This document shows positions 37,197 to 52,009 of a stretch of DNA of 64,000 nucleotides, piece after piece. Source of the stretch: Pseudobdellovibrionaceae bacterium (GTDB taxonomy: Bacteria > Bdellovibrionota > Bdellovibrionia > Bdellovibrionales > Bdellovibrionaceae); NCBI GenBank assembly GCA_019637955.1, contig JAHBUS010000001.1, positions 806,001 through 870,000 on the forward strand. The letters run 5' to 3'. Below the pieces are notes generated by a model. That model did not search any database. It worked only from the letters and a program-made list of their open reading frames with translations, and had not been told where the DNA came from. The position numbers and the translations under genes were made by a program. Each line of letters opens with the position of its first letter. The stretch's first letter is position 1.

Positions 37197-37407
37197 GTTT
37201 CAATGAACTTAGAAAATGGTGTGATCCTCATCTCCACACGTTTTGGTTGAGATGACATGGCGGGCACCCTCCGATGAGACCGCATCCCGACTTGAGCCGA
37301 GGTGTCTCAAGCCTAGACGAATGTTTGGAATTATCGCCACAACCTCAATATTCAATTAAGAGACACCGAAAAGCTCTGTGGAGACTTGCGAATTTCGCGA
37401 GGAATTT

Positions 37408-40400
37408 ATGGAACTTACAAAGTTTGCGCGCATGAACCCCCTCGGGAGCACGAGACAAGTGACAAGCTTGTTTTTGTCTCTCTTTGCGTCGTCGTCACTG
37501 GTTCTTCTCACCGGTTGTCCGGGAGGAGGAGGCTCTGACTTCGCCGGTCTCGACAACACCAACAAAGGCGCCGACAACGTTCCTTGCAAGATCGATAGCG
37601 AAACTCCCGTTGCCAACTCCCTGAAAGTCGCCGCCGCGAGCGGAACCAAAACTCTCTTTACCATTTCTCCGTCGACCAGCTCCTGCAAAGTTTTTTATTT
37701 CGTGAACGGTGTTCGCGTCAACTCCACCTCGTCGAACTTCATCGAACTCGATTCAACGACTCTTACCGCGGGCGTCAACACGATTCGCGTCGAAGCGAAC
37801 AACTCGCTGGGCTCCGACAACTTCGAATGGCAAGTGACCAAGAACACGCCCCCCACCTGCTCACGAACCAGCCCCACCGCCAGCGCGGTGAACATGGCCG
37901 CGACGGCGAGCCAAGCCTTTACCGTTGGCGGAACGCCCGAAGCGGGAGAAACGCTGTCGTTCCGTTGGCTCCTGGAAGGCTCCACGAACGCCGCTCTTGT
38001 CGAAACTATTTCGGGATCGACCGCGAGCCAAGCCATGTTCACGGCTTCGAGCGCGCTCGTCGGCGTCAAGACGATCAGCGCCGAAGTGTCGGACGGTTAT
38101 GACGTCACGACTTGCAGCTGGTCCGCCAACATCGGTCAAGAGTGTCAACTGACCGCGAAATCGCCGAACGTGTCGTCGATCCGCATGGCCTCGGCCGCGG
38201 GAAGCTCGAACGGGTTCTCGGTCACGGCTTCAACTTCAAGCTGTTTGGTGTCGTGGACCTTGAACGGCGCCGATATGACCGGTAACGGCACCAGCCGCAC
38301 CGTTCAATCGACCGAACTGGGCGTTGGCTCGAACGTTTTGAAAGCCGAAGTGTCGAGTTCTTCGGGGACCACCTCGCAAATTTGGACCGTCGTGAAAAAC
38401 TCGCCTCCGACCTGCGCGCAGTCGCCCTCGGCGACCGGCAACACGATTTCGGCGGGCGCCACCATCAATCTGAACGCCACCATCACCGACGCCAACAACG
38501 ACCCCGTGACCTGGTCTTGGCGACAAAATGGATCGTCGACATCAAGCCCCCCTGTGAGCATTAGCAATGGTTCAGGAACTTCGAACGCCGCGTTCACGCC
38601 CACCTCTTCGCACATTGGGTTCAACTCCTTTGAACTGCGCATGGATGACGGCTACGACACCGCGATTTGCAACTGGAGCGTCCAGGTTTATCCGCAGTGC
38701 TCAATCGGCTCGGTCAGCCCGGCCGGCACCACGACCACGATCCCGAATCTGGGAACCAACTCGAATGCCTTTAGCGTGGTTCCCTCGGACGGAAGCTGCA
38801 ATATTTCTTGGTCCCTGAACGGCATCAACCTGGGCACCAATGCGGCCTTCGTCAATCTGCTCTCTTCGTCGTTTGCGACCAGCAGCAATTTGGCGGTGAC
38901 CGTTTCAAATGCGTCTTCCAGCCAAACGCACACCTGGAACGTCACGAAGAACACGCCGCCCGTTTGCGCGACGTTCAACCCTGTCAACACCGGCACCAAC
39001 TTGGCTGTGTCAACGACACGTGCATTCACCGCCACGCTGACCGACGCCAACGCGGGTCAGTCGCACTCTTATGACTGGCGCCTGGACGGCGCCACCCCGA
39101 GCGCGACGTACTTCACGAGCTCAAACGGAACTCTGTCTTCGACAGGAACCTGGACCGCGCTGAACGCGCAGGTCGGTTCTCACAATCTCACTTTGAACGT
39201 CAATGACGGTTATGATTCGGTGGCTTGCACCTGGCCCGTCGATGTTTTGCGAAACTGCGCGGTCAGCTCGGCCACGCCGTCGGCGAGCAGCCTGCGCGTG
39301 TCGTTCGCCCCCACCACGGTGACCAGCTTCGGGGTCGTTCCGAATGATCCGAGCTGTTCGATCGTTTGGAAACTCAATGGCAGCACCGTTGCCTCGGATG
39401 TGAACTTCCGCGACTTCACCAGCAGCACGCTCACCTCGGGAACCCCCGACACGGTGACCGCCACGCTGACGAACGCCGTCGGCTCGACGACACGTAGCTG
39501 GACGGTCGCGAAAAACTCGCGCCCCGTTTGCTCCTCGCAGAGCCCCAGCGCTTCTGGCAACACGATCAACGTGGGCGGCTCGCAAATCTTTACTGGCAAT
39601 GCCACGGATGCGGAGAGCGATGCCCTGGCCTTCTCGTGGACGTTCAATGGCGCCAACGCCGGCCTTTTCTCGGGCGTGACCAATGCCACCTTCTCTTCAA
39701 GCGCGACGCTCAATGCGGGCTTGGGTCAAGTCGGCAACAATCAAACCGTGGCGCTGACCATGAACGACGGCTACGACTCGACGACCTGTACTTGGGGCGT
39801 TGACGTGGTCGATCCGAACTCGGCCCAAATTATTTCTTGGACGCCGACCCAAGATCCAGCCGTCATTCTCTCGACAGGATCGCAAACGTTCACCGTGAGC
39901 GCGACCGGTACGGGTCTGAGTTACGCTTGGTATCTTGATACCGTTTTGCAATCGAGCAAAACCACCTCGGCCGAAACTTTCGCCAACACCGATATGACCA
40001 TCGGGAATCACGTCATCAAAGTCGTGGTGACCGATACCTACGGAAACACCGCCGAGAAGAGCTTCAATGTGAAGCGCAATGCGGCTCCGAGCAAAACGTC
40101 GTTTATTCCCAACATCGCGGGCGTGACGACTTACAAGCTGAACTACAGCTCGACGATGAATTTTTCGATCGCGGCGACCGACGCCAATGGCGACACGCTC
40201 GCTTACACGTGGACGCTCGACAATGCTTCGAATAGCGCCATCGTCGCGGGCGGCAATCCCTACGAGGCCAGCCTGCAGCCCAACGGCAGCACCCTGCTCT
40301 TGGGACCGCACACGGTGAAAGTCTCGATCAGCGATGGTTACGAGACCACCACGCAGTCGTGGAACGTCATGATCAATATGTTCTCGAACGAATGTAACGA

Positions 40401-43400
40401 TCTCTACAACTCGAGCCCCACGGGCACGGGCGGCGGCCGCGTGTGCACGCTCGTCGGAAATCCGAGCATGGGTCATGGACAGGATATCTACACGGACCCG
40501 ACGCTTCTCAAAGCACGTCCCTATCAGATTATCGAGATCGAAACGAATGTCTTCGTCTTCACCGATCACATCAACCACTCGGTGATCTTGTACAATGCCA
40601 ATCCGAATGGAGCGAACAAGTCTTACTTCGGTCAAACGGTCCCCCCACGAACGGCAAAAGTCGTTCTGGGGAATGGAGCCGCGGGACGCAACAGCGATGC
40701 GTCGTCGCCCGTCGCCGCTTACCAAACCGTCGGCACGGCGCCCACTCAAGTGAGCATGCCGTCCTTTAAACTCAATGAACCGCGCGGAATCGCTTACGAT
40801 TCGACACGAAGTATCCTTTACGTTGCGGATCGGTACAACCGCCGCGTTCTTGCGGTCAATTCCTCCGGAATGGTCTCTCGCGTGTTGGGTCTCACGGCCG
40901 GTGGAAACACACAAAATACGACGACGAATCCCGCCACGGAAACGTTCGGTTACGATCAAGTTTGTTTGGAGCCCATGGGTCTGGCGATCGCGGGCCGCTA
41001 CCTTTATGTGGGTTGTTGGGCTCAGCATGTGATTAAGCGCGTGAATATCGACAATCCCGCCACCACGGCCACTTACGGATTAACCCTCACCGTCGTGGGC
41101 CGACAAAATGGTTCGGGCTCCAACGTCGTTTCACCGATCGGCTCTGTGAGTCCTGACGGCGCCGGCGGCGCAAGCACCGTCGCCGCAACCGGAGCCGTTG
41201 CTTACGCGAACAACGTGATCAACCTTGCTGCCGACGGTGCAGGTCTGATCTATTGGATCGAGCGCGCCGGGAGCAGCCAAGGTCTGCGCTTACGCGCTTA
41301 CAATCCCACCGGCTCACCGGTCACCTTCTACACGACCGCGCCGAACTCGGATCACGTCTCGCTCTCGGGCATCTTCAACTTCCATGCTTTTGATCTGACA
41401 GGCGCTTCGCTGACGTCATCGAGCTTCCAAGCCAACATCGTCAATGCGACGGCGGGCACCTTGGGTGCCGTTGGCGTCACGTCAAATGCCAACTTGGGCG
41501 TGAATGTTTGTCACATGGTCAACACGCGTCTTCTCGATGCGGGCTCCAACCCGATCACCTTGGCCTCACCTCAAGTTGTCGCGATGGCCGTGACCGCGGG
41601 AACCGGCGCCTTCTACTCGGATGCGAGCTGCACCACCGCTTTGCCGAGCAGCCAATTCACGATTCCGGCGGGCGCGAGCCAAGGCTCCGTCTTCGTCAAG
41701 ATGACCGCGGCTTCGGCCTACACCCTGCGTGCCACTGCGGGCGCCGTCAACAACACGTCCTCCGGGACCGTTGTCGCCACGACGACCACGGCCACGACGG
41801 TGCGCCTCACAGCGCCGCCGCGCTTTAAGCCCAATGAATGCGCAATGGTTGAATTGTCGCTCGCCAATGGAACCACCCCCGCCATTTTGGCCGCGGGCCG
41901 CGTGGTCTCGCCCACCACGAACAACTACGGTAGCTTCTATTCGGACGCCTCTTGCACGGCGCAAATTGACCGGGTGACCTTCTCGTCGAGCCAGGCCACT
42001 CAGTTCGCGTACTTCCGTCGAACGGTCACGATCCCCTCGGGATGGACCGGAACGCTCACGGGCTACAACAACTCGGCGGCGGCTTCCTACGGCGAGTACA
42101 CGAACAACGTGCGCATCGGACAAATGCGCTTCGAAGATGGCCAAACAGGTTTGGATATTCTTCGTAACGGATCGACCGGACTTCCCGACGGCTTTGCCTA
42201 CTCAAACCAATCTCAGCACTACGTTTCCTTCATCAACTTGCTTGGCGTGGATCCCGGGCTTGGGGTTGGTGTCTCGTCGCAATCGGCGAATATCATCTTT
42301 GGTCAGTTGAACAACGTGAGTACGCCGACCGATATCACCGGCGGCTACAACGGTGAAGATCAAGCCGCTCTCGGAACCCGCTTGAATCAGCCGACGTCGG
42401 CCAACTTCAATCTGGCGGGCAATCGCATCTTGATCGCCGATTACGTCAACAACCGAGGCCGAACGTACGAGATGGACGCCCAAGGCTTTGCCCGCACGTC
42501 GATCGGTGCGGGACGACAGCGTGACCGCGTCGGCGTGACGACGCTCGACTCGACCGCCGTCGCCCTCGTCAATCCGTACAAGCTGGAGTTCTTCAACAAC
42601 TACATCTATTTCTCCGAGTACGGAAATCACCGCATTCGCCGCACCAACTTAGCCTCGGGCGTGACCGAGGTGATCGCGGGGAACGGAACGACCGGAACTC
42701 CCACCGAGGGGAATGATGCGACCTTCGACAATATGAACAACCCGCGCGGCTTTAAAGTGATCGCTTACCCGTCTACGACGTCGCCAACCAACTACGTTCT
42801 GTTCTATGCCGAGACTTGCCAAGTTCGCGCCGTGAATTTGAGCGGCCCCACGATCAGCAACTTCTTTGGCGTGGGCAACCTGCTTCCCGGAAAAGTGAAA
42901 ACGATCGCGGGTGATACGGCCAACGGCTGTGCGACCTGGTCGACGCTTCCCAATAGCGATGGGATGTCGGCGTTAACAGCTCGTCTTAACGTTCCCGAAG
43001 ATTTGGCGTACATGGATGGCGAACTCTACATCATCTCGGCGTCGGATCACTGTCTGCTGCGCTTGACGACGGATGGCAAATTGTACCGTCCCCAAGGACC
43101 GTCCTCATGCTCGACCACGGCGCCGACGACGAACGATGCAACGATGGACGTCATGCGCACACGCACGCCCAAATCGTTCTCGCCCGACGTGGCGAATCCG
43201 GGCAACTACTTCTTGATCGACCAGTACGGCGACACCACGGGGTTCATCCGTTACATCAACAACTCGCTGGGCCTGGTGTCATTTAAGAACTCGGCCCCGA
43301 TCCCCGTTGCGGGCCGAGCCAATGGCAGCGCGCCTCCCCTCGTGAAAACGGTGTACCAATACAGCGCGACGTCGGGTGCGAGCGGTGTCGGCGGTGTGGC

Positions 43401-43722
43401 GACTTGGGTTCAGACGACCGGCTCCTCGGGAAGCAACGACAAAGTTTGTTGGACCGCTGGCGTCGTCAATGATGGCTCCAACGGTGCTCATGCGATCTAC
43501 TGTGCCAACCGGTTCCAGGACGATGACGGTGCTTTGGCAGCCGGTCCCTCGAACGGCTCAGGAATCCGTGGCGGCGCGCCTCTGGACCGCGAGCAGGAGA
43601 AGATCAGCCGTCTGAACGCGACCTTCTACGCTCCTTACGGGATCGCTTTTGATGATGACGGCAATCTGTACATCTCGGAATACAACAACCATATCATCCG
43701 CATGATTCGACGTTGGTGGTAA
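37408..43722 (+). CDS. Giant lipoprotein with Ig-like tandem modules and an NHL beta-propeller
   Basis: 2,104 residues. A lipoprotein signal (VLLTGC) is followed by about ten alternating 90-residue modules. Type A has a Cys pair around SC.V.W.LNG; type B ends in the motif DGYD...C.W, seen in codons near 38098, 38645, 39205, 39765 and 40333, so the A+B pair repeats every 547-568 bp. From about residue 1000 comes a six-bladed NHL-type propeller (LNEPRGIAYD, ILYVADRYNRRVLAV, NYIYFSEYGNHRIRR, LYIISASDHCLLRL, YGIAFDDDGNLYISEYNNHI), interrupted after blade two by further Ig-like modules (about 41340-42130). Probably a surface-anchored stalk presenting a binding head. ATG 37408 follows GAGGAA. Confidence 0.8.
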   Translation: MELTKFARMNPLGSTRQVTSLFLSLFASSSLVLLTGCPGGGGSDFAGLDNTNKGADNVPCKIDSETPVANSLKVAAASGTKTLFTISPSTSSCKVFYFVNGVRVNSTSSNFIELDSTTLTAGVNTIRVEANNSLGSDNFEWQVTKNTPPTCSRTSPTASAVNMAATASQAFTVGGTPEAGETLSFRWLLEGSTNAALVETISGSTASQAMFTASSALVGVKTISAEVSDGYDVTTCSWSANIGQECQLTAKSPNVSSIRMASAAGSSNGFSVTASTSSCLVSWTLNGADMTGNGTSRTVQSTELGVGSNVLKAEVSSSSGTTSQIWTVVKNSPPTCAQSPSATGNTISAGATINLNATITDANNDPVTWSWRQNGSSTSSPPVSISNGSGTSNAAFTPTSSHIGFNSFELRMDDGYDTAICNWSVQVYPQCSIGSVSPAGTTTTIPNLGTNSNAFSVVPSDGSCNISWSLNGINLGTNAAFVNLLSSSFATSSNLAVTVSNASSSQTHTWNVTKNTPPVCATFNPVNTGTNLAVSTTRAFTATLTDANAGQSHSYDWRLDGATPSATYFTSSNGTLSSTGTWTALNAQVGSHNLTLNVNDGYDSVACTWPVDVLRNCAVSSATPSASSLRVSFAPTTVTSFGVVPNDPSCSIVWKLNGSTVASDVNFRDFTSSTLTSGTPDTVTATLTNAVGSTTRSWTVAKNSRPVCSSQSPSASGNTINVGGSQIFTGNATDAESDALAFSWTFNGANAGLFSGVTNATFSSSATLNAGLGQVGNNQTVALTMNDGYDSTTCTWGVDVVDPNSAQIISWTPTQDPAVILSTGSQTFTVSATGTGLSYAWYLDTVLQSSKTTSAETFANTDMTIGNHVIKVVVTDTYGNTAEKSFNVKRNAAPSKTSFIPNIAGVTTYKLNYSSTMNFSIAATDANGDTLAYTWTLDNASNSAIVAGGNPYEASLQPNGSTLLLGPHTVKVSISDGYETTTQSWNVMINMFSNECNDLYNSSPTGTGGGRVCTLVGNPSMGHGQDIYTDPTLLKARPYQIIEIETNVFVFTDHINHSVILYNANPNGANKSYFGQTVPPRTAKVVLGNGAAGRNSDASSPVAAYQTVGTAPTQVSMPSFKLNEPRGIAYDSTRSILYVADRYNRRVLAVNSSGMVSRVLGLTAGGNTQNTTTNPATETFGYDQVCLEPMGLAIAGRYLYVGCWAQHVIKRVNIDNPATTATYGLTLTVVGRQNGSGSNVVSPIGSVSPDGAGGASTVAATGAVAYANNVINLAADGAGLIYWIERAGSSQGLRLRAYNPTGSPVTFYTTAPNSDHVSLSGIFNFHAFDLTGASLTSSSFQANIVNATAGTLGAVGVTSNANLGVNVCHMVNTRLLDAGSNPITLASPQVVAMAVTAGTGAFYSDASCTTALPSSQFTIPAGASQGSVFVKMTAASAYTLRATAGAVNNTSSGTVVATTTTATTVRLTAPPRFKPNECAMVELSLANGTTPAILAAGRVVSPTTNNYGSFYSDASCTAQIDRVTFSSSQATQFAYFRRTVTIPSGWTGTLTGYNNSAAASYGEYTNNVRIGQMRFEDGQTGLDILRNGSTGLPDGFAYSNQSQHYVSFINLLGVDPGLGVGVSSQSANIIFGQLNNVSTPTDITGGYNGEDQAALGTRLNQPTSANFNLAGNRILIADYVNNRGRTYEMDAQGFARTSIGAGRQRDRVGVTTLDSTAVALVNPYKLEFFNNYIYFSEYGNHRIRRTNLASGVTEVIAGNGTTGTPTEGNDATFDNMNNPRGFKVIAYPSTTSPTNYVLFYAETCQVRAVNLSGPTISNFFGVGNLLPGKVKTIAGDTANGCATWSTLPNSDGMSALTARLNVPEDLAYMDGELYIISASDHCLLRLTTDGKLYRPQGPSSCSTTAPTTNDATMDVMRTRTPKSFSPDVANPGNYFLIDQYGDTTGFIRYINNSLGLVSFKNSAPIPVAGRANGSAPPLVKTVYQYSATSGASGVGGVATWVQTTGSSGSNDKVCWTAGVVNDGSNGAHAIYCANRFQDDDGALAAGPSNGSGIRGGAPLDREQEKISRLNATFYAPYGIAFDDDGNLYISEYNNHIIRMIRRWW

Positions 43723-43723
43723 T

Positions 43724-44176
43724 ATGAAATTGAAAGCACAATTCCAATTCGCGCTGATCTTCGTTATCGCCGCCGGCTGTCTGGGCGGCGCTGGCTGGCT
43801 CTACTTCAAAGGCCGAAAGACCCCGCCTTCGGCCGCCGTGGCCTTTGATGCCAAGGCCTATCAAGACGCCGTGGTCGTCCGGTACCAAGAGAAGTCACAA
43901 TTGATCACCTCGATTTTGCAGCAAATCAAAGTCGAGGATGAGAATATCAAAGGCATCCAGGCGCACATCCCCGGCTGGAAGGCTCTGACCGCGCAAGATG
44001 CGTCGGAGATCGAAGAGCTCAATTCGCATTTGGACACGTGGTTCTCGGGTCACCTTGATCAAGTCCAGTCCAAGATCGGCAAAAATACCGAGCTCAAATC
44101 TCTCATGACAAAGCTGTCCAAACTGGACCAGACCATCTCGGGCGAACGCGCCCGCCTTTTGTCCGCAAAACTCTGA
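43724..44176 (+). CDS. Small membrane-anchored coiled-coil protein
   Basis: A 150-residue protein with one N-terminal membrane segment or signal (FALIFVIAAGCLGGAGWLYF), then a mostly helical extracytoplasmic part with heptad-like spacing (SQLITSILQQIKVEDENIKG, LMTKLSKLDQTISGERARLL). It starts 1 bp after the giant lipoprotein stop codon and is probably translated from the same mRNA, so it may assist that protein. A hairpin follows at 44183-44205. Family not recognised. Confidence 0.6.
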   Translation: MKLKAQFQFALIFVIAAGCLGGAGWLYFKGRKTPPSAAVAFDAKAYQDAVVVRYQEKSQLITSILQQIKVEDENIKGIQAHIPGWKALTAQDASEIEELNSHLDTWFSGHLDQVQSKIGKNTELKSLMTKLSKLDQTISGERARLLSAKL

Positions 44177-44237: not shown

Positions 44238-44296
44238 GTGAGTCGTTCCGAAACTGGACTCACCCGCCCACTCCCGGATGCCGATGACATCGGCAT
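44238..44296 (+). other. Two stem-loops in the leader of the motor operon
   Basis: First GTGAGTC (44238-44244) and GACTCAC (44257-44263). Second ATGCCGAT, GAC, ATCGGCAT (44278-44296), a perfect 8-bp stem that includes the first two bases of the start codon at 44295 and covers the place where a ribosome binding site would be. Confidence 0.55.
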
Positions 44297-44900
44297 GGAA
44301 ACTCAAAAAATTCTCGCAATCTTAACTTTCGCATCGATGATTTCAGCCTGCGCGTCGACCACGTACCGCATTCAATCTTCGCCCTCCGAGGCCGAAGTTG
44401 ATTTCGTTTACAAGAGCGGCACCCGCAAGAGCATGGGAAAAACCCCGCTCTCGTTGAACGCGTCGGAAGCGAATCCCAATAAAGAGTCTTTCCAAATCGA
44501 AGTGCGCAAAGATGGTTTCGACCGCCAAGCGGTTTTCGTTCCTGAGTCCTCGTTCTCGAAAAACCTCGAAGTGAACGTCAACCTCACCGCCGATGCGCGC
44601 TCGGGCGATGCCAAAAAAGGCGATGCTGCGTTTAACGATATCGCCTCTGCGGTTGCCGACGTGCAAAAAGATATTCAAACGAAGAACTACGAAATCGCGC
44701 TCACCAAGCTCAACCGCATGGTTGCGCAGTATCCCAGCGTGTCGACTTTCTACAGCCTGACGGGCAATGTCCACTACCTGGAGCGCCGGCTTGAAAAGGC
44801 ACTGGCCTCTTACAAGCGCGCACTTGAACTGAATCCGAATTCGTCCGAGCTTCAAAAAATTATCGAGAAGCTCGACGGTCTGAATGGGGGATCGCGATGA
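44295..44900 (+). CDS. PEGA and TPR lipoprotein of the Mot/FliFG-like operon
   Basis: A 201-residue lipoprotein (signal ILAILTFASMISAC). The mature N-terminal part is a PEGA-type beta domain (YRIQSSPSEAEVDFVY, then GKTPLSLNA and FQIEVRKDGFDRQ). The C-terminal third has two TPR motifs (NYEIALTKLNRMVAQYPSV, RLEKALASYKRALELNPNS). PEGA domains are common in surface-layer or envelope complexes; TPRs suggest protein contacts. It is the first of five coupled genes and its stop codon overlaps motA (ATGA). ATG 44295 is taken for the lipoprotein signal; the hairpin over the start is unusual. Confidence 0.75.
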   Translation: METQKILAILTFASMISACASTTYRIQSSPSEAEVDFVYKSGTRKSMGKTPLSLNASEANPNKESFQIEVRKDGFDRQAVFVPESSFSKNLEVNVNLTADARSGDAKKGDAAFNDIASAVADVQKDIQTKNYEIALTKLNRMVAQYPSVSTFYSLTGNVHYLERRLEKALASYKRALELNPNSSELQKIIEKLDGLNGGSR

Positions 44901-45682
44901 TCTTACTTCCTGTCTTAATCTTCTTGTCCGGCTTTTTCATGACGGTGGCGATCCGCCATCTCGATCAGTCGGTTTCGAGCTACTACGACTTCGTCGCCTT
45001 GGTGATGGTCGTGGGGGGAACATTCACTCTTGGCGTTGTGCTGCTTCCTTGGGAGTACCGCAAAGACATCGTCACGGCGGTCAAGTTTTTGTTCCGTCCC
45101 GAGAAGCGCCAGTACAAAGATGCGATGCGCGAAGTCCTGCACGTTTTGCAGACCGGGCGCGTGAACGCGTCGATGGGCAACAAATTTCTCTATCAGCGCA
45201 TTTTACAAGATGGGTCCGAGCTCGTTCAGCTGGGCTTCCCCCGCGAACGCCTCGAAGAGGTTCTCTCCGAACGGGTCTTTCACTCGGTGAAGCGTTGGAA
45301 GAAAATCGCCTCTTCGGTGAAAAACTTGGCGAAATACCCTCCCGCGTTCGGTTTGATGGGAACGGTTTTCGGTCTCGTGAATATCATGAAGTCGCTCGCG
45401 GGCGCGGCGGATGCCGGCAAGCTTGGAGTCGAAATGTCGGTCGCTCTCGTCGCGACGATGTACGGTCTTTTGATGGCCAACTTCATCGTCAATCCCATCG
45501 GCGAATTGATTTCGAAGAAGGCCGAAGAAGAAGAAGAGTACGCGCAAGTCGCGATGGAAGCGATTTTGATGTTGAAAGACGAAACTCCCCTGCTCGAATC
45601 GGTTGAGCTTCTCAATTCGCTCGTTCCCGAGGAGCAACGGCAAGGCTTCGCCTCTTTAACCGCGGGAAGTGATGCTGCATGA
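44897..45682 (+). CDS. MotA/PomA-type stator channel subunit
   Basis: 261 residues with the four-helix MotA layout: two N-terminal helices (LLPVLIFLSGFFMTV, DFVALVMVVGGTFTLGVVL), a cytosolic domain (about 55-155) and two C-terminal helices. The conserved prolines of helices three and four are present (KYPPAFGLMGTVFGL and LLMANFIVNPIGELI). The cytosolic segment includes the charged helix LVQLGFPRERLEEVLSER. MotA with MotB forms an ion channel that generates torque on FliG. ATG overlaps the stop of the PEGA/TPR gene. The MotA type (not the three-helix TolQ/ExbB type) separates it from the 55.6-kb homologue. Confidence 0.9.
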   Translation: MILLPVLIFLSGFFMTVAIRHLDQSVSSYYDFVALVMVVGGTFTLGVVLLPWEYRKDIVTAVKFLFRPEKRQYKDAMREVLHVLQTGRVNASMGNKFLYQRILQDGSELVQLGFPRERLEEVLSERVFHSVKRWKKIASSVKNLAKYPPAFGLMGTVFGLVNIMKSLAGAADAGKLGVEMSVALVATMYGLLMANFIVNPIGELISKKAEEEEEYAQVAMEAILMLKDETPLLESVELLNSLVPEEQRQGFASLTAGSDAA

Positions 45683-46359
45683 AGAACCGCCGTCAACGCC
45701 ACATTTCCCATCAGGAAGTCGATAGCGAGGGCTCATGGGCCATCAGCTATGGTGATATGGTGACGTTGCTTTTGACGTTCTTCATCATCTTTTTCACCAC
45801 CGACAAGTTCGAAATGCAGAAGTCGCTGAAGCTCGATGTGTTGGCCAAGCAAGCCAAGATGAGCCGCGACATCGCTTCGGTTGTTGATCAAGCGATGTTC
45901 CCTGACAAGAAACTTCAAGACGAGGTTCATGGCCGCGTCTATCAAGACGGTCAGCGCGTGATCATCGAGTTTTCGGGCGTCTCCTTTTTTAGAAGCGGTC
46001 AGACCGAACTGACAAAGCAGGCCAAAGCCTCCCTGCAAAAGTTCTACGACGTGTACGCGCCTCATATGGGGCAGTACTCGCTGGGAATCCGTTCGTTCAC
46101 CGACACGCGAAAAATCCCGCACAACAAGTACCGTTTCCAAGACAATCTGGAACTCTCGGCCCTGCGCTCGATCTCGGTCATGAGGTTCTTCCAGAAAGCC
46201 GGCGTTCCGCTCTCAAATATGAAATTGAGCGGAAACGGCGAATTGAAACTGAGTGAAAACGATTTAGAAAATATACCGGCTTCGGATCGCAAGCCCTCGT
46301 CCGTGCATGACCTTGCGCGAACGGCAGTTCTGGTGATCGAACCTCGGGGGGACAAATGA
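45679..46359 (+). CDS. MotB-type stator subunit with OmpA-like peptidoglycan-binding domain
   Basis: 226 residues. A short cytosolic N-terminus leads into one membrane helix WAISYGDMVTLLLTFFIIFF, with the ion-carrying Asp at residue 26. A plug or linker region (50-90) follows, then an OmpA/MotB C-terminal domain (100-222) including SFTDTRKIP, NLELSALRSISVMRFF and SGNGE. It anchors the stator to peptidoglycan. Both ends overlap neighbours as ATGA, so stoichiometric expression with MotA and the FliF/FliG-like protein is expected. Confidence 0.9.
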   Translation: MKNRRQRHISHQEVDSEGSWAISYGDMVTLLLTFFIIFFTTDKFEMQKSLKLDVLAKQAKMSRDIASVVDQAMFPDKKLQDEVHGRVYQDGQRVIIEFSGVSFFRSGQTELTKQAKASLQKFYDVYAPHMGQYSLGIRSFTDTRKIPHNKYRFQDNLELSALRSISVMRFFQKAGVPLSNMKLSGNGELKLSENDLENIPASDRKPSSVHDLARTAVLVIEPRGDK

Positions 46360-48056
46360 AACTAGCCATCTTTTTTTCGATTCTGATGTCTTGGGTCCTG
46401 GTGGGCCAAGCTCAGGTCGCCAAACGCCATCCTCGCGTCATGGAACTCGAGCGCATGTTGCAAAACGACGTTCAAACGTCGGTGCGTGACATCCTGCCCG
46501 GTCAGTCCTTTCACGTGAAAGTGATGATCGATCCGCTTCACCGTCAGACGGTCAGCAATGGCGGACGCGAAGCTCTTCCCTACTTTGAAGCCTCGGAAGA
46601 GATCAAAGACGAGTGGGATGATCCGAACCGCAGCGACTTCGAACTCTTGGGCCGCGTGAACCGCATTTCGGTGAAGGCCTACGTGCCCGGAACGCTCTCC
46701 CCCGAACAAGTCACCGAAGTCAAAGCCGCGATCACCAATCGCATTCCCTTCGTTGAAGGACGCGATCTCGTCGAGGTGGAGCAAAAAAATTGGCCCCTGC
46801 CTCCCGACCACAACCGTTACACGTCGTGGATTTTGGGCTTGGGCGTCGTGATGCTCTTGCTCTTGGGCTTGGTCTACTTTGTCGTGTCGTCTTTGGCGAC
46901 CAACCGCATTTCAAAAGCCATCAAGACCATCAAGATCTCGACGGCTGACGGCGGCGGCGCTGGCGGCGGCATGAACGCGGGCTTTGCGCCCGCAGCCGGC
47001 CCTTCGACGCCCCAAACGGGTGGCGGCGGCAGTTTCGGTGATGCCGGACGCGTTCAGATGAACGACACGATCCGCATGACCGAAGTCATCATGGGTCTCG
47101 TTAAAAATTTCGAATCTTCGCACTCGTTCCCGACCCTCGAGGACATGACGACGTTTGAGCAGTACTTCAGCTCGCACCCCCGCTCGGTGGGCGCGCTGCT
47201 GGCCGAGTTTCCCTCGGCGCTGAAGTCAAAAGTCTTCTCGTACAGTTACTCGAACTCTTGGCTCAAAGGCTTGACCGATCCTGGCGATATCGACCCGATC
47301 TCGTTCGAGCTCATGAACAAGTTGGCGCGCTTCGATCGCGCCTCCGAGTCGCATGATTGGAATGAACTTCTCATTCTCTGCTGGCGCCTAGAATCAGCCC
47401 TGCCCGCGTTCTTGAAGCGCCTGGACTCGGCGGACAGCCTTTTGATCTTAAAATCGCTGCCGCAATCCATCGCGATTCAAACCGCTCGCGAACTGATGCC
47501 CGGAGAATGGGCGGCGGTTTTGAAACGCGGCGGTCCCCAGAAAACGCTCTCGCCCGAAACGATCGAGAAGTACAAGAAGATGGCGCTCGAAGCCAAGCCC
47601 TTGCGCGGTCTCGCGGTTCTGAATCAGTACCGCAAAGACGTGGACTTGATTAAGTACCTCAAAGTTTGCGATCCCGTTTTCGAAAAAGAGATCTACGGCG
47701 CGGCTCCGGCCGAGTCGGCTTTAGCTTCGCTGCGTCCTCCTTTCTACCCGGTGTTGGACGCGTCTTCCGATGAGGTGCGCGGCTTTGCCTCGCAAGTTTC
47801 GATCGAAGACTGGTCGTTGGCTCTTTTGAATGTTCCCCGCGCTTTGCGTTCGAACATCGAAAGCACGTTCTCGGACAAGCAAAAGTTCCGCTTGATCGAG
47901 TTGCTCAAACGCTACGACCGCTCGCCCGTGGACGCCGCCGTGATTGGCGAAGCGCGCGAACGTGTCGGCCGTTACTACCGCGACTACACGGCAAGCAAAG
48001 CTCAGGCGCCGACGGCCTCTGAGCCCGCTCCCACAGCGATGGACGAGGCGGCATAA
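46356..48056 (+). CDS. FliF-FliG-like fusion protein (ring-building domain joined to rotor domain)
   Basis: 566 residues. Signal-like first helix (1-19). Residues 35-145 resemble the FliF third ring-building motif region: LERMLQNDVQTSVRDILPG, then LLGRVNRISVKAYVPGTLS and IPFVEGRDLVEVEQ, directly before a membrane helix (157-179), as in FliF. A Gly-rich linker (195-230) leads to a FliG-like part: SHPRSVGALLAEFPSAL (273-289) parallels the FliG EHPQ helix, and FYPVLDASSDEVRGFASQV plus SIEDWSLALLNVPRALRSN (463-500) parallel the FliG C-terminal domain, up to EARERVGRYYRDY. In my alignment Lys and Glu stand where E. coli FliG has R281 and D288. FliF and FliG are normally separate. Coupled to MotB by ATGA. 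Confidence 0.7.
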   Translation: MKLAIFFSILMSWVLVGQAQVAKRHPRVMELERMLQNDVQTSVRDILPGQSFHVKVMIDPLHRQTVSNGGREALPYFEASEEIKDEWDDPNRSDFELLGRVNRISVKAYVPGTLSPEQVTEVKAAITNRIPFVEGRDLVEVEQKNWPLPPDHNRYTSWILGLGVVMLLLLGLVYFVVSSLATNRISKAIKTIKISTADGGGAGGGMNAGFAPAAGPSTPQTGGGGSFGDAGRVQMNDTIRMTEVIMGLVKNFESSHSFPTLEDMTTFEQYFSSHPRSVGALLAEFPSALKSKVFSYSYSNSWLKGLTDPGDIDPISFELMNKLARFDRASESHDWNELLILCWRLESALPAFLKRLDSADSLLILKSLPQSIAIQTARELMPGEWAAVLKRGGPQKTLSPETIEKYKKMALEAKPLRGLAVLNQYRKDVDLIKYLKVCDPVFEKEIYGAAPAESALASLRPPFYPVLDASSDEVRGFASQVSIEDWSLALLNVPRALRSNIESTFSDKQKFRLIELLKRYDRSPVDAAVIGEARERVGRYYRDYTASKAQAPTASEPAPTAMDEAA

Positions 48057-48057
48057 A

Positions 48058-48624
48058 ATGCGATTTTTCGGGCAGCACCTGATTCTTCTTTTTTGTCTTC
48101 TGGCGGCACCCTCAGTGTGGGCTCAAAAAGTCAATTTTGACTTCGGGATGTACTCGATCAAAGCAACCCCGCCAACGGGATCGACCACCGGCGATATTTC
48201 GTTGAGTTCGCCCGGAGCTTACTCGCTCAGTGCCAACTTTGAAATGAAGCAGCCGTTCGAAATCGGCGTGGGCTACACCGTATTTTTCTCGAAAGGAATT
48301 TCGGGAGACATGGGTTTTGGCCCCGATTTCTACCTGTACTACTTTCCGTTCAGCGAAGGCTCCGCGGTTCGCGTGGACACGCCCGCCGTTCAATACCGTG
48401 AAATCCAGCAGTGGCGCCCTTTTGGGTATATGTCGTTCCATCAACGGCAATTCCAATCCGCCCAATCGTCGTATTCGGGCTTTGGCTTCGGCCTTGGAAC
48501 CGAATACCAATACACCGAGCGCATGGCCTTCAGGGGCGTGATCCGCTCGATGAATTTGGCCGGACCGTCTCAGGCCACGTTCAACTACTTCGATACAATC
48601 CTCGGCGTTCAATTGCAGTTCTAA
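48058..48624 (+). CDS. Outer-membrane beta-barrel protein of the Mot/FliFG-like operon
   Basis: 188 residues with a signal peptide (HLILLFCLLAAPSVWAQ) and alternating amphipathic strands ending in aromatic or Phe residues (GVGYTVFFSKGISGDMGFGP, FDTILGVQLQF), typical of a small 8-strand barrel with a C-terminal Phe. It starts 1 bp after the FliF/FliG-like stop codon, so it is part of the same mRNA, and a good terminator follows. It could be the outer-membrane end of a trans-envelope assembly; this is inferred from operon membership only. Confidence 0.7.
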   Translation: MRFFGQHLILLFCLLAAPSVWAQKVNFDFGMYSIKATPPTGSTTGDISLSSPGAYSLSANFEMKQPFEIGVGYTVFFSKGISGDMGFGPDFYLYYFPFSEGSAVRVDTPAVQYREIQQWRPFGYMSFHQRQFQSAQSSYSGFGFGLGTEYQYTERMAFRGVIRSMNLAGPSQATFNYFDTILGVQLQF

Positions 48625-48628
48625 GATG

Positions 48629-48657
48629 AAAACCGTCCCGCTCTGAGACGGTTTTTT
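48629..48657 (+). terminator. Intrinsic terminator of the motor operon
   Basis: AAAACCGTC (48629-48637), loop, GACGGTTTT (48647-48655) plus T. It ends 5-33 bp after the barrel gene. Confidence 0.88.
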
Positions 48658-48717
48658 CATTTCAAGATTGGGTCCCCATACGCCGAAAAGTGTTTAGGAC
48701 AGTTAAAGGAGCTTTGC

Positions 48718-49806
48718 ATGAGAGCGTTTGTAATCACGGTGATTTTCAGCCTTGCTGCCGCCGCTCCGTCGTGGGCTCAAGATGCCAACGGCGTCATGAT
48801 GGTCGTCAAGGGCGACATCAAAGTGACCTCCGGCAAAGACGGCAAGACCGAAGGCGCCAAAGTGGGCCGCAAAGTTTTTGCCGGCGATTCCATCACGGCG
48901 GGCCCCGACTCTCGAGCAAAGGTTGTGATGTCGGATCGCAATATCTTGAACGTCTCCCCCGACTCAAAAATCGTGATCGAGAAATACGCGACCGACGCCA
49001 AGGGCGACTCGAAGAACGTCGAAATCAAAGTTGAGTACGGTAAAGTCCGCGCGCAGATCGAACAGAAATACGACGGCGACAAGAGCAAGTTCAATATTAA
49101 AACTCCCACCGCGGTTGCAGGTGTTCGCGGAACTGACTTTATCACCGGGTTTAATCGAACCACCCGCCAGACTTCAGTCATCACCTTCTCGGGGATGGTC
49201 GCCGTTGGAAACATGGGTCCGAATGGTCAGATCCAGAATGCGGTTTTCGTCAGACCTGGCCAGACGACGAATGTCGGCGTCGGCGCCACGCCCGAAGCTC
49301 CCAAAGCGATGCCGAAAGAAGAGCTGAATCAAATGAACCAAGACTCCGCAGCCGCGGCGCCGGCACCCGCGGCACCGCAAACACAAACGGCGGCACCGGC
49401 TCCCCAAGATCAGCCGAAGCAAGAAAATCAGGCCCCCGCACCGGCTTCGGCCGCGAATGCACCTGCACCTACGTCGAGCGAGCCCAAAAACGATCGCGGT
49501 CCCGCGTCGGTTTCGGGTTCGAACTCCAATCCTCCCGCAACGGCCGCAACTTCGGCTCCCGCCCAAGCAAACGCGCCCGCACCGGCGACGAAAGCTCCTG
49601 AGACTCGCACTCCAGCTTCCGTCGCACCCAGCATGGGACCGATTGTTCTCGATACGGCGGCCCTTCCTCAGGGCAAAGGTCCTAACATTCCCAAGATGCC
49701 CGTGGGCGGAAACAACTTGGTCCCGGTTCCGACGCAGAATCAGTTCGTGAACGAAGTGATTCGCGGTGGCGGCAAGTCCAAAGTCACGATCGAAATTCGC
49801 AAGTAA
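48718..49806 (+). CDS. Secreted FecR-domain protein with Pro/Ala-rich tail
   Basis: 362 residues: signal peptide (FVITVIFSLAAAAPSWAQ), a FecR domain (25-170: VKGDIKV, GRKVFAGDSITAGPDSRAKV, KFNIKTPTAVAGVRGTDF), then about 130 residues of Pro, Ala, Thr, Ser and Gln-rich low-complexity sequence and a short ordered end. In this setting FecR domains occur in periplasmic or surface scaffolds and not in sigma-factor signalling; no sigma factor is nearby. AAGGAG lies 8 nt before ATG 48718. Independent unit between two terminators. Confidence 0.8.
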   Translation: MRAFVITVIFSLAAAAPSWAQDANGVMMVVKGDIKVTSGKDGKTEGAKVGRKVFAGDSITAGPDSRAKVVMSDRNILNVSPDSKIVIEKYATDAKGDSKNVEIKVEYGKVRAQIEQKYDGDKSKFNIKTPTAVAGVRGTDFITGFNRTTRQTSVITFSGMVAVGNMGPNGQIQNAVFVRPGQTTNVGVGATPEAPKAMPKEELNQMNQDSAAAAPAPAAPQTQTAAPAPQDQPKQENQAPAPASAANAPAPTSSEPKNDRGPASVSGSNSNPPATAATSAPAQANAPAPATKAPETRTPASVAPSMGPIVLDTAALPQGKGPNIPKMPVGGNNLVPVPTQNQFVNEVIRGGGKSKVTIEIRK

Positions 49807-49873
49807 GAATCGCAACAATTCCCTACCCGCCGGGAATGGGAATTTCTATAATAAACACAGTCTCGTTTTAGCT

Positions 49874-49900
49874 AAAAGGCACCTTCCGGGTGCCTTTTTT
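49874..49900 (+). terminator. Intrinsic terminator after the FecR-domain gene
   Basis: AAAAGGCACC (49874-49883), TTCCG, GGTGCCTTTTTT (49889-49900). Confidence 0.9.
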
Positions 49901-49933
49901 ATGTCATCAAGCTGATGGCTGAGGAGTTCTGCT

Positions 49934-52009
49934 GTGTTGCGCATCGTTTTGGTTCTCGCTTGCTTACTCCCGATCTCCACCTGGGCCCAAGAGGATGCCC
50001 GCAAATTGAAGCTCGACGGGCGAAAACCGATTCGCCTCGAATACATCGCACCGGCCTGGAACAAAGATCCGCGCAAAAACGACCTCTCCGCCGTGATTAT
50101 TCGAGACTCCCTTTCGGGGCGGGTTGCAAAAGTTGAAATGACGGAGACGTCGGAAAACTCATCCATTTTTGTCGGGATCTATCAAATTAATTTTCAAGCG
50201 GGCGCCGACTCAACCGCGGACATCACTCCCGAGGTCTACATCGCACCCCTGGCCATGATCAACTCGGACCAACACCTCCAGCGCATTTCGAGCTTAATTA
50301 AAGAGAACCTTCTTCTGCGCAAACCCTATTTTTTACGTGTTGAAAAAGGGATTCAGGTGATCTCGGTCTTTGATAGCCGGGCACAAGCGCTGGAAGCCTA
50401 CCAAACTTACTTGAGAAATTCCGGTGGCAAGCCCTTGGTGGACCCCGCCGCCCTTGAAGCTCAACGTCTCGCTCTTAAAAATGCCGAAGAAAAGGCCCGC
50501 CTTGAGCAGGCGGCGGCAGCGGCGGCGGCACGAACAAAAATCGAAGAAGATGAAAAACGCCACCAAGAGGAGCTTCGCAAACGCGAGGCCTTGCTCAATG
50601 AGCAACAGAGGCTGGAACGAAAAGCAAAAGCGGTCAAAATTGCCGAAGAGGCTTTGGAATTTTACAAAAAGGGAGACGCGAAGTCTGCCGAAGACAAGTT
50701 CAATCAGGCGATTGAGTTGGATCCAGAAAATACCAGTTACTCGTTCCAGTACGGCGTGACTCTTTTCAAAAATGATAAGTACAACCGAGCCATCGTCCTC
50801 TTGGACATGGCGACGGGAGAGAATGTCAACGCGAACGAGCGCGACTATTACAAAGCTCTTTCGCACATGAAACTCCAAGAGTATGAAGAGGGTTATAAAA
50901 TCTTCACCAGCTTGGAGTCCCGCAACGACAAAGCGACGTCTTCGCTGGCCGCGTTCTATGCGGGAGTGATCGACTTTCAACGAGAGCGGTTTGATCCGGC
51001 GAAACAGCATTTCGAGTACGTTCTCGACAACTCAACGGATCCCAAAATCGACCAGCAGGCCGAGTCCTACATTGAACAGATCGCCAACGCCAAGCGCTTT
51101 GAGGAAATGCGCAAGAAAAGCGTTATTCTTACTTTCAATCTCGGATTGATGTACGACTCCAATATTTTGTCTGTCTCCGCGGCAAACGCGCCGACGGACT
51201 TGGCTGGATACCGTTGGTCGTATGGAGGCTCCATTGAATACCGTCCTGTATTCTCGGAAAAGCATGAATTCTCGGGAATTCTCAGCGTCTCTGACTTGTA
51301 TTCGACGGATCAGAATTTTAAAGCCAAGACTGAGTTTCAGAATACCGATCCGTTGATCTTCGGGCTTGTTTTTCCTTACAAATGGAAAGGAACGCTTTTC
51401 GACAAACCCGCGCAAGTGGGCCTCACTCCCGGCTACGAGACGATTCAGATGAACGCCGACGGAACTGGCGCGCGTGAAAACATCGTCAACTCGACGATTC
51501 TGAAGGGCGATGGAACCTTCGTGATGCGTGATGACTGGTTCGCGAACTACGCCCTCGAGGTTCGGCGCGACAATTCTCTTCTCAAAGATGTGCCGAGCGA
51601 TGATGTTCAATCTGCCAACAAGATGACCCTGTCGACAACCCAAACCTTCTTTCAAGACAACAAGAAGACCCGCGCCGTGATTGGCGAAGGTTCCTATGCC
51701 ATGAACATGGCCGATGGTAAAAATCAAAAATACAATCGTCTCGAGATCGCCGGCGGCTACCTGATGCCCGCCTTCATGGAGTCGACTCTACTCTCCCGCC
51801 TGAACGCTTCGATGTCGAAGTACCCCGATCATGTCACCGGCCGGGACGACAAGTCGTTGGGATTGACCCTGATTTTGCAAAAACAATGGAGCGAAACTTG
51901 GTCGGGAAATCTGATGGGAGCCTTCAATAAAACGGATTCGACCCTTGAGGGATACACCTACGACAAATTTGTCATCATGGCGGGAGCCACCTGGACCAAC
52001 GCGTTCTAA
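49934..52009 (+). CDS. TPR and outer-membrane beta-barrel protein
   Basis: 691 residues: signal peptide (IVLVLACLLPISTWAQ), a beta domain (25-150), a long charged coiled coil (175-240, with AAAAAAARTKIEEDEKRHQEE), TPR repeats (240-385: AEEALEFYKKGDAKSAEDKF, YNRAIVLLDMATGENVNANE, DPAKQHFEYVLDNSTDPK) and a C-terminal beta-barrel (390-691) ending TWTNAF. This resembles secretins' partner or surface-export proteins with periplasmic TPRs. GTG at 49934 is used because GAGGAG sits 7 nt upstream; TTG 49937 is next. Together with the FecR gene it may form an envelope assembly. Convergent with recO (4-bp overlap). Confidence 0.7.
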   Translation: MLRIVLVLACLLPISTWAQEDARKLKLDGRKPIRLEYIAPAWNKDPRKNDLSAVIIRDSLSGRVAKVEMTETSENSSIFVGIYQINFQAGADSTADITPEVYIAPLAMINSDQHLQRISSLIKENLLLRKPYFLRVEKGIQVISVFDSRAQALEAYQTYLRNSGGKPLVDPAALEAQRLALKNAEEKARLEQAAAAAAARTKIEEDEKRHQEELRKREALLNEQQRLERKAKAVKIAEEALEFYKKGDAKSAEDKFNQAIELDPENTSYSFQYGVTLFKNDKYNRAIVLLDMATGENVNANERDYYKALSHMKLQEYEEGYKIFTSLESRNDKATSSLAAFYAGVIDFQRERFDPAKQHFEYVLDNSTDPKIDQQAESYIEQIANAKRFEEMRKKSVILTFNLGLMYDSNILSVSAANAPTDLAGYRWSYGGSIEYRPVFSEKHEFSGILSVSDLYSTDQNFKAKTEFQNTDPLIFGLVFPYKWKGTLFDKPAQVGLTPGYETIQMNADGTGARENIVNSTILKGDGTFVMRDDWFANYALEVRRDNSLLKDVPSDDVQSANKMTLSTTQTFFQDNKKTRAVIGEGSYAMNMADGKNQKYNRLEIAGGYLMPAFMESTLLSRLNASMSKYPDHVTGRDDKSLGLTLILQKQWSETWSGNLMGAFNKTDSTLEGYTYDKFVIMAGATWTNAF

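Follow-up and report, generated by a model that had tools for sequence, protein, structure and literature searches.

A conserved operon of the Bdellovibrionota encodes a putative flagellum-derived, envelope-spanning motor with a one-piece FliF/FliG-like rotor

What kind of machine is encoded by an operon that joins a MotA/MotB pair, known as the ion-driven stator, to a FliF/FliG-like fusion and to outer-membrane proteins? Such an operon lies at 44295-48624 of the window, the 64,000-nucleotide stretch of DNA analysed here, and the question is whether it represents the flagellum of the cell, an accessory to that flagellum or a motor in its own right. All five genes lie on the + strand. The first encodes a lipoprotein (44295..44900; lipobox ISAC) with a TPR match in Pfam (4e-8) and a PEGA domain that stays under the cut-off in the window sequence (0.21, Pfam) and exceeds it in the orthologue at locus L128. 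It is followed by a MotA-like stator subunit (44897..45682; MotA_ExbB, PF01618, 1e-20), a MotB-like stator subunit (45679..46359; MotB_plug, PF13677, 2e-10; OmpA, PF00691, 7e-11), the 566-aa rotor fusion candidate P4 (46356..48056) and an 8-stranded outer-membrane beta-barrel (48058..48624; OMP_b-brl, 0.002, Pfam; AlphaFold pLDDT 92.1). The first four genes are linked by 4-bp ATGA overlaps (lipoprotein/MotA 44897-44900, MotA/MotB 45679-45682, MotB/P4 46356-46359), and a gap of 1 bp separates P4 from the barrel gene (48056/48058).

These coordinates and junctions match those of an initial annotation made from the sequence, and its identification of the lipoprotein, MotA, MotB and the barrel was borne out by the Pfam matches and the AlphaFold barrel. 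The terminator that it placed at the end of the operon corresponds to an intrinsic-terminator-like hairpin 3' of the last gene (48624..48660, + strand; -13.7 kcal/mol, z -3.7, T6 tract), which is absent from the list of a consensus terminator scanner because its loop of about 9 nt exceeds the scanner's limit of 8. Further 3', at 48718-52009, the window holds a FecR-domain protein and then a TPR/outer-membrane protein; the latter also flanks the operon in L114 and, divergently, in L111. On the 5' side, a 150-aa membrane-anchored protein (43724..44176, + strand) is retained in close relatives only, with homologues in the same place only in L024 (G015) and L025 (G019). In agreement with the initial annotation, the ORFs examined around the operon included no recognisable genes for flagellar export, rod or hook.

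The stator genes are of the flagellar type. MotB combines a plug/transmembrane (TM) segment with an OmpA peptidoglycan-binding domain, and its Asp26 (SYGDM) is invariant across 14 orthologues; this channel aspartate together with the OmpA anchor leads us to expect an ion-driven stator fixed to peptidoglycan. The best NCBIfam matches of MotA are flagellar MotA/PomA-type families (75-81 bits, versus 23 for TolQ). Window-type MotA always has Thr156 and Thr187, and the Na+ stator protein PomA carries the equivalent pair, which weakly suggests that sodium may be the ion; MotA2 of Bdellovibrio bacteriovorus HD100 has Ala at the first of these positions. At the other end of the operon, a structure search with the AlphaFold model of the barrel returned OmpA, NspA, OmpX and OmpW as its nearest folds, and the barrel as modelled is too narrow for a rod to pass.

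P4 was modelled by AlphaFold from an alignment of 52 orthologues (A4), with a mean pLDDT of 86.6. The layout consists of a signal peptide (residues 1-19), a split RBM3-like periplasmic domain (26-144, with an insert at 61-100), a TM segment within helix 152-192, a flexible stretch (193-233) and a FliG-like helical array (238-550) in which the FliG-C torque domain occupies about 459-541. The periplasmic domain is predicted to fold as alpha-beta-beta-alpha-beta with its insert between strands 1 and 2, where FliF RBM3 and SpoIIIAG carry an insert as well (PMC4768692). When the model was compared with the PDB by Foldseek, FliG/C-ring structures took ranks 1-12 (best E 7e-4, prob 1.0) and FliF MS-ring/RBM3 structures ranks 13-24 except for a FliG at rank 16 (FliF matches: E 0.03-0.17, prob about 1.0). 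The initial annotation had made its reading depend on FliF or FliG similarity in the 566-residue protein, and ranks 1-24 consist of these two families. The FliG-C domain alone (1qc7) superimposes on P4 with a TM score of 0.83 and an rmsd of 1.7 A.

At the sequence level, Pfam recognised only FliG_C in the window P4 alone, at an E-value of 0.14, and homology was therefore judged through alignments, structure and the HD100-type homologues described below. Pfam FliG_C was found in 21 of 52 members of the P4 family (best 1e-6). Searching all PDB sequences with the P4 profile gave four matches below 0.01, all of them FliG and all at P4 459-541, and hhalign of window-type P4 against a local FliG alignment gave a weak match with FliG-C in register (P 0.038). 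For FliF, hhalign placed RBM3 at the expected position with marginal support (P 0.003-0.007; 0.0065 for window-type P4 against a local FliF alignment), FliF HMM matches in P4 did not rise above the level of shuffled sequences, and the YscJ_FliF Pfam match occurred only at the genome's separate fliF; since the sequence support is marginal, the FliF identity of P4 rests on the fold. P4 is thus FliG-like in fold and sequence and FliF-like in fold. The fusion proposed by the initial annotation stands for an RBM3-type domain and FliG M/C, but not for a whole FliF: a full FliF has RBM1, RBM2, RBM3 and two TMs, and P4 has one split RBM3-type RBM and one TM. Two torque residues of FliG (E. coli numbering) are altered in window-type P4, where R281 is replaced by K and D289 has no acidic counterpart, and this partial loss indicates that the interface has diverged.

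The genome has a flagellar gene set of its own. Separate fliF and fliG genes (2.6e-55 and 1.4e-43) lie on contig C7 together with fliP (1e-83), so that the second fliF/fliG set which the initial annotation had looked for elsewhere in the genome is present. Three further motAB pairs were found, none with the operon's partners nearby. The possibility that the operon is simply the genome's flagellar basal body is ruled out by the separate fliF, fliG and fliP and by these three pairs; the export apparatus, rod and hook that mark a flagellum are not recognised beside the operon, and fliP, fliF and fliG are on C7. The operon's machine may nevertheless share the use of the flagellar export gear. An unrooted MotA tree of small, modest sampling, from which long branches had been removed, placed the MotAs of window-type operons in a clade (99/99) outside the flagellar MotA clade (98/96), which comprises MotA1 and MotA3 of Bdellovibrio bacteriovorus HD100, two window-genome MotAs and two actinobacterial MotAs. 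HD100 MotA2 fell with other operon-type MotAs (82/84), again outside the flagellar clade. An isolated MotA at L214:6905-9038 (G000 C2), adjoined by a 392-aa MotB-like protein with a long coiled coil, groups loosely with HD100 MotA2. Besides the flagellar FliG, most relatives in the Bdellovibrionota possess many extra short FliG_C-only proteins of 150-280 aa (for example L086:7421-8113 and L087:7923-8417, G000 C8).

P4 was detected in 20 of 60 relatives and FliP in 58 of them; flagellated genomes without the operon are the rule, at about two thirds of the flagellated relatives, and this patchiness shows that P4 is dispensable for a flagellum. Across the Bdellovibrionota, 57 of 291 genomes carry P4. 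FliP is present in 54 of these 57 (Fisher p 0.05) and the remaining three assemblies are fragmentary, so that no clear flagellum-less carrier exists among the 57 carriers in these 291 genomes across the phylum; with nearly all carriers flagellated, the distribution does not show independence from the flagellum. A scan of 84,980 species genomes with MotB as the query, which biases it toward window-type operons, returned loci nearly all from the Bdellovibrionota.

The conserved synteny in the Bdellovibrionota that the initial annotation had looked for was found: the five-gene order is the same at every one of the 46 complete named loci, taken as those with all five genes present on a single strand, with an apparent deviation in L127 explained by an over-long start. 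So strict a conservation goes well beyond what chance would produce. A MotA-MotB-P4 cassette that lacks the outer-membrane genes occurs in two spirochaetes, the starfish symbiont COTS27 and G325. The spirochaete cassettes (L175:8738-13017 and L235:5941-10061) encode fusions of 703 and 765 aa and adjoin a UvrD-like helicase.

The conserved system is larger than five genes. The gene set named by the initial annotation was correct, but it overlooked a giant lipoprotein encoded upstream (37378..43722, + strand; a 2114-aa ORF with a likely start at ATG 37432 and the lipobox LTGC), in which Ig-like repeats, discerned by eye, precede NHL beta-propeller repeats (Pfam 2e-7). This protein, a proposed surface partner, is probably surface-exposed. 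Of the 32 loci whose flanks are long enough to judge, 23 have a counterpart no more than 1.5 kb from the operon, on one side or the other and in either orientation, and in the rearranged locus L150 the barrel and lipoprotein genes remain beside the giant protein. Its C-terminal part occurs in 13 of 60 genomes, 12 of which carry P4 (p 1e-6), and among 37 genomes of the window's family the two overlap in 9 of 9 (p 8e-9); shared ancestry weakens these p-values and leaves the pattern itself unaffected. The 9 include G011 and G016, where the giant lipoprotein occupies another contig.

FliG_C searches of the relatives led, by way of proteins of 580-620 aa, to a divergent form of the operon. In genome G036, which we take to be B. 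bacteriovorus HD100, MotA and MotB come first, followed by the PEGA/TPR lipoprotein, the small barrel, a 325-aa membrane protein and then a 577-aa P4 homologue (about 2,913,420-2,915,153, minus strand), which has Pfam matches to FliG_M (1e-7) and FliG_C (5e-10). A profile built from five HD100-type P4 proteins matched FliG-M/C at 4e-14 and window-type P4 end to end at 1e-13, and HD100-type P4 keeps the equivalents of E. coli FliG R281 and D289. This form is present in 6 of 60 relatives. The MotB genes of G036 number exactly three (0.129, 2.919 and 3.171 Mb). From order and strand rather than annotation, the middle one (2.919 Mb) would correspond to bd3020 and its partner to bd3021, that is, to motA2 (motA2/motB2 gene names from PMC11323537). 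HD100 MotAB2, published as flagellar, therefore appears, on this assignment, to sit in a divergent version of the window operon. A HAMP-SpoIIE phosphatase gene faces the MotAB2 operon (L074:7421-14191; HD100 2.913-2.920 Mb). In G005, contig C98 (L219, L220) combines a window-type operon with HD100-type genes; a further MotAB there has its own TPR-like lipoprotein gene nearby.

Taken together, these results make it fairly likely that the product of the operon is a motor derived from the flagellum, driven by ions and spanning the envelope, and distinct from the flagellar basal body. MotA and MotB would form the stator, anchored to peptidoglycan through the OmpA domain of MotB. P4 would act as a one-piece rotor whose RBM3-like domain, single TM and FliG-like array substitute for FliF plus FliG; because a single chain carries an RBM ring domain on the periplasmic side and a FliG torque domain on the cytoplasmic side, it is expected to build a turning ring in the membrane, pushed by MotA at the FliG-C domain. 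Since export gate, rod and hook are all missing, the output must go to envelope partners: torque would pass to an outer-membrane module made of the PEGA/TPR lipoprotein and the small barrel and, in most lineages, to the giant Ig/NHL lipoprotein too. The likeliest use would be to move or work a surface adhesin, for example in gliding or in prey or surface contact.

The same genes might instead serve the polar sheathed flagellum, with extra MotAB stators and with P4, barrel and lipoprotein as added rings or an outer-membrane collar that tunes torque. That nearly all carriers are flagellated (54/57) fits this account, as does the presence in the homologous HD100 operon of MotAB2, a pair named as flagellar stators in the literature. 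All three HD100 motAB products reportedly contribute to motility by the single flagellum (Morehouse et al. 2011, by its title as cited in PMC11323537), and such a swimming role counts as evidence against a separate machine. An accessory role nonetheless seems unlikely to us, because about two thirds of the flagellated relatives manage without the operon, which moreover brings its own FliG-like rotor, keeps a conserved linkage with the giant lipoprotein and has MotAs in a clade that excludes the flagellar ones, including HD100 MotA1 and MotA3. FliL-Bd1076, in addition, binds MotB3 and not MotB2 (PMC11323537).

A non-rotary transducer of the Tol-Pal/Exb/Agl type, in which MotAB pull on a static P4 scaffold that passes force on to the outer membrane, serving adhesin display or envelope upkeep, would suit partners that are outer-membrane proteins and lipoproteins, and the incompletely kept FliG-C torque residues of window-type P4 agree with it. 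MotA and MotB are, however, of flagellar and not TolQ/ExbB type, as the bit scores and the OmpA-domain MotB indicate, and the combination of a FliG-C domain with an MS-ring RBM points to a rotor rather than to a TolA/TonB-like linker; we give this mechanism about one chance in ten. It is very improbable that the locus is a decaying flagellar relic or a chance set of paralogues without joint function. Its components are flagellar paralogues, and Chlamydia retains a FliF-FliG fusion without a flagellum (PMC4768692), but the strict order, overlaps and intact frames across 46 loci, in which P4 identity falls to about 20%, the invariant MotB Asp26 and the co-occurring giant lipoprotein speak against decay. 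Zorya-type defence, which calls for ZorA together with ZorC/ZorD or ZorE, was rejected, as PADLOC gave similarity only at the level of MotB (47 bits) and no match for MotA or P4.

For the rotary envelope motor that we favour, a part in gliding or prey contact of the Bdellovibrionota, bacteria of predatory type, is plausible. In these bacteria the gliding motor, adhesins and force path are unidentified and regarded as a major open challenge (2026 review, PMC13104615), and an earlier proposal for gliding invoked Agl/Glt-like loci such as Bd0828-0838 (PMC3169522). We tentatively entertain a bolder possibility, more doubtful than the motor itself: that the family is the gliding/prey-contact motor of the phylum, that a stator-rotor unit released from the flagellum turns a FliFG ring in the inner membrane and so drives the giant NHL/Ig adhesin via the outer-membrane module, that HD100 MotAB2 belongs here and not to the flagellum, and that the spirochaetes hold the bare MotA-MotB-P4 core. 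Counting against a gliding role are the reported swimming role of all three HD100 motAB pairs and the patchy presence of the P4 homologue even in HD100's genus (3 of 5 genomes). The operon is a new candidate for the gliding motor. It puts in question whether MotAB2 of HD100, a strain open to genetic work, is simply a flagellar stator, and, if the reading is true, the torque unit of the flagellum can operate as a module that needs no export gear.

Compared with known systems, the operon shares with the flagellar motor its stator type, the MotB aspartate and OmpA anchor, a FliG M/C-like torque unit and an RBM3-type domain before the TM. It differs in that P4 has no RBM1 or RBM2 and joins the FliF and FliG parts in one 566-aa chain, in that export apparatus, rod, hook and filament are missing from the operon, and in the presence of a barrel, a lipoprotein, a giant lipoprotein and a MotA clade of its own. 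To our knowledge, FliG-type rotors have been known only from flagella and flagellar relics, and the open-licence literature yielded no account of such a rotor paired with MotAB anywhere but in a flagellum.

The FliF-FliG fusion of Chlamydia is likewise a natural protein in which portions of FliF and FliG are joined. It consists of part of an SctJ-like region and a FliG-M-like region with no RBM3/SpoIIIAG-like domain, and the flagellar genes named for Chlamydia are FliF, FliL and FlhA only, without MotAB (PMC4768692); P4, by contrast, combines RBM3 with FliG-C and invariably has MotAB as neighbours. The 5:2-type motor GldLM of the Bacteroidota type IX secretion system (T9SS) also drives surface adhesin movement, but it is not homologous to MotAB (PMC13104615), and no T9SS ring proteins were recognised in the operon. 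Common to the operon and the AglRQS-Glt system of Myxococcus is a PMF-type motor acting on TPR and beta-barrel envelope proteins with a surface adhesin as output. AglRQS is of the TolQR class and lacks an OmpA-domain MotB, whereas the operon has a MotA-type stator with such a MotB, a FliF/FliG-like rotor found only in the operon, and no Glt or MglA partner recognised among its neighbours. Zorya ZorAB is, like the operon, a MotAB-derived motor outside the flagellum; the operon's MotB has generic similarity only, and its MotA has no ZorA match. The proposed machine is built from known parts; it would work like a flagellar torque unit and yet lacks what defines a flagellum, an Agl-type motor or a Zorya system.
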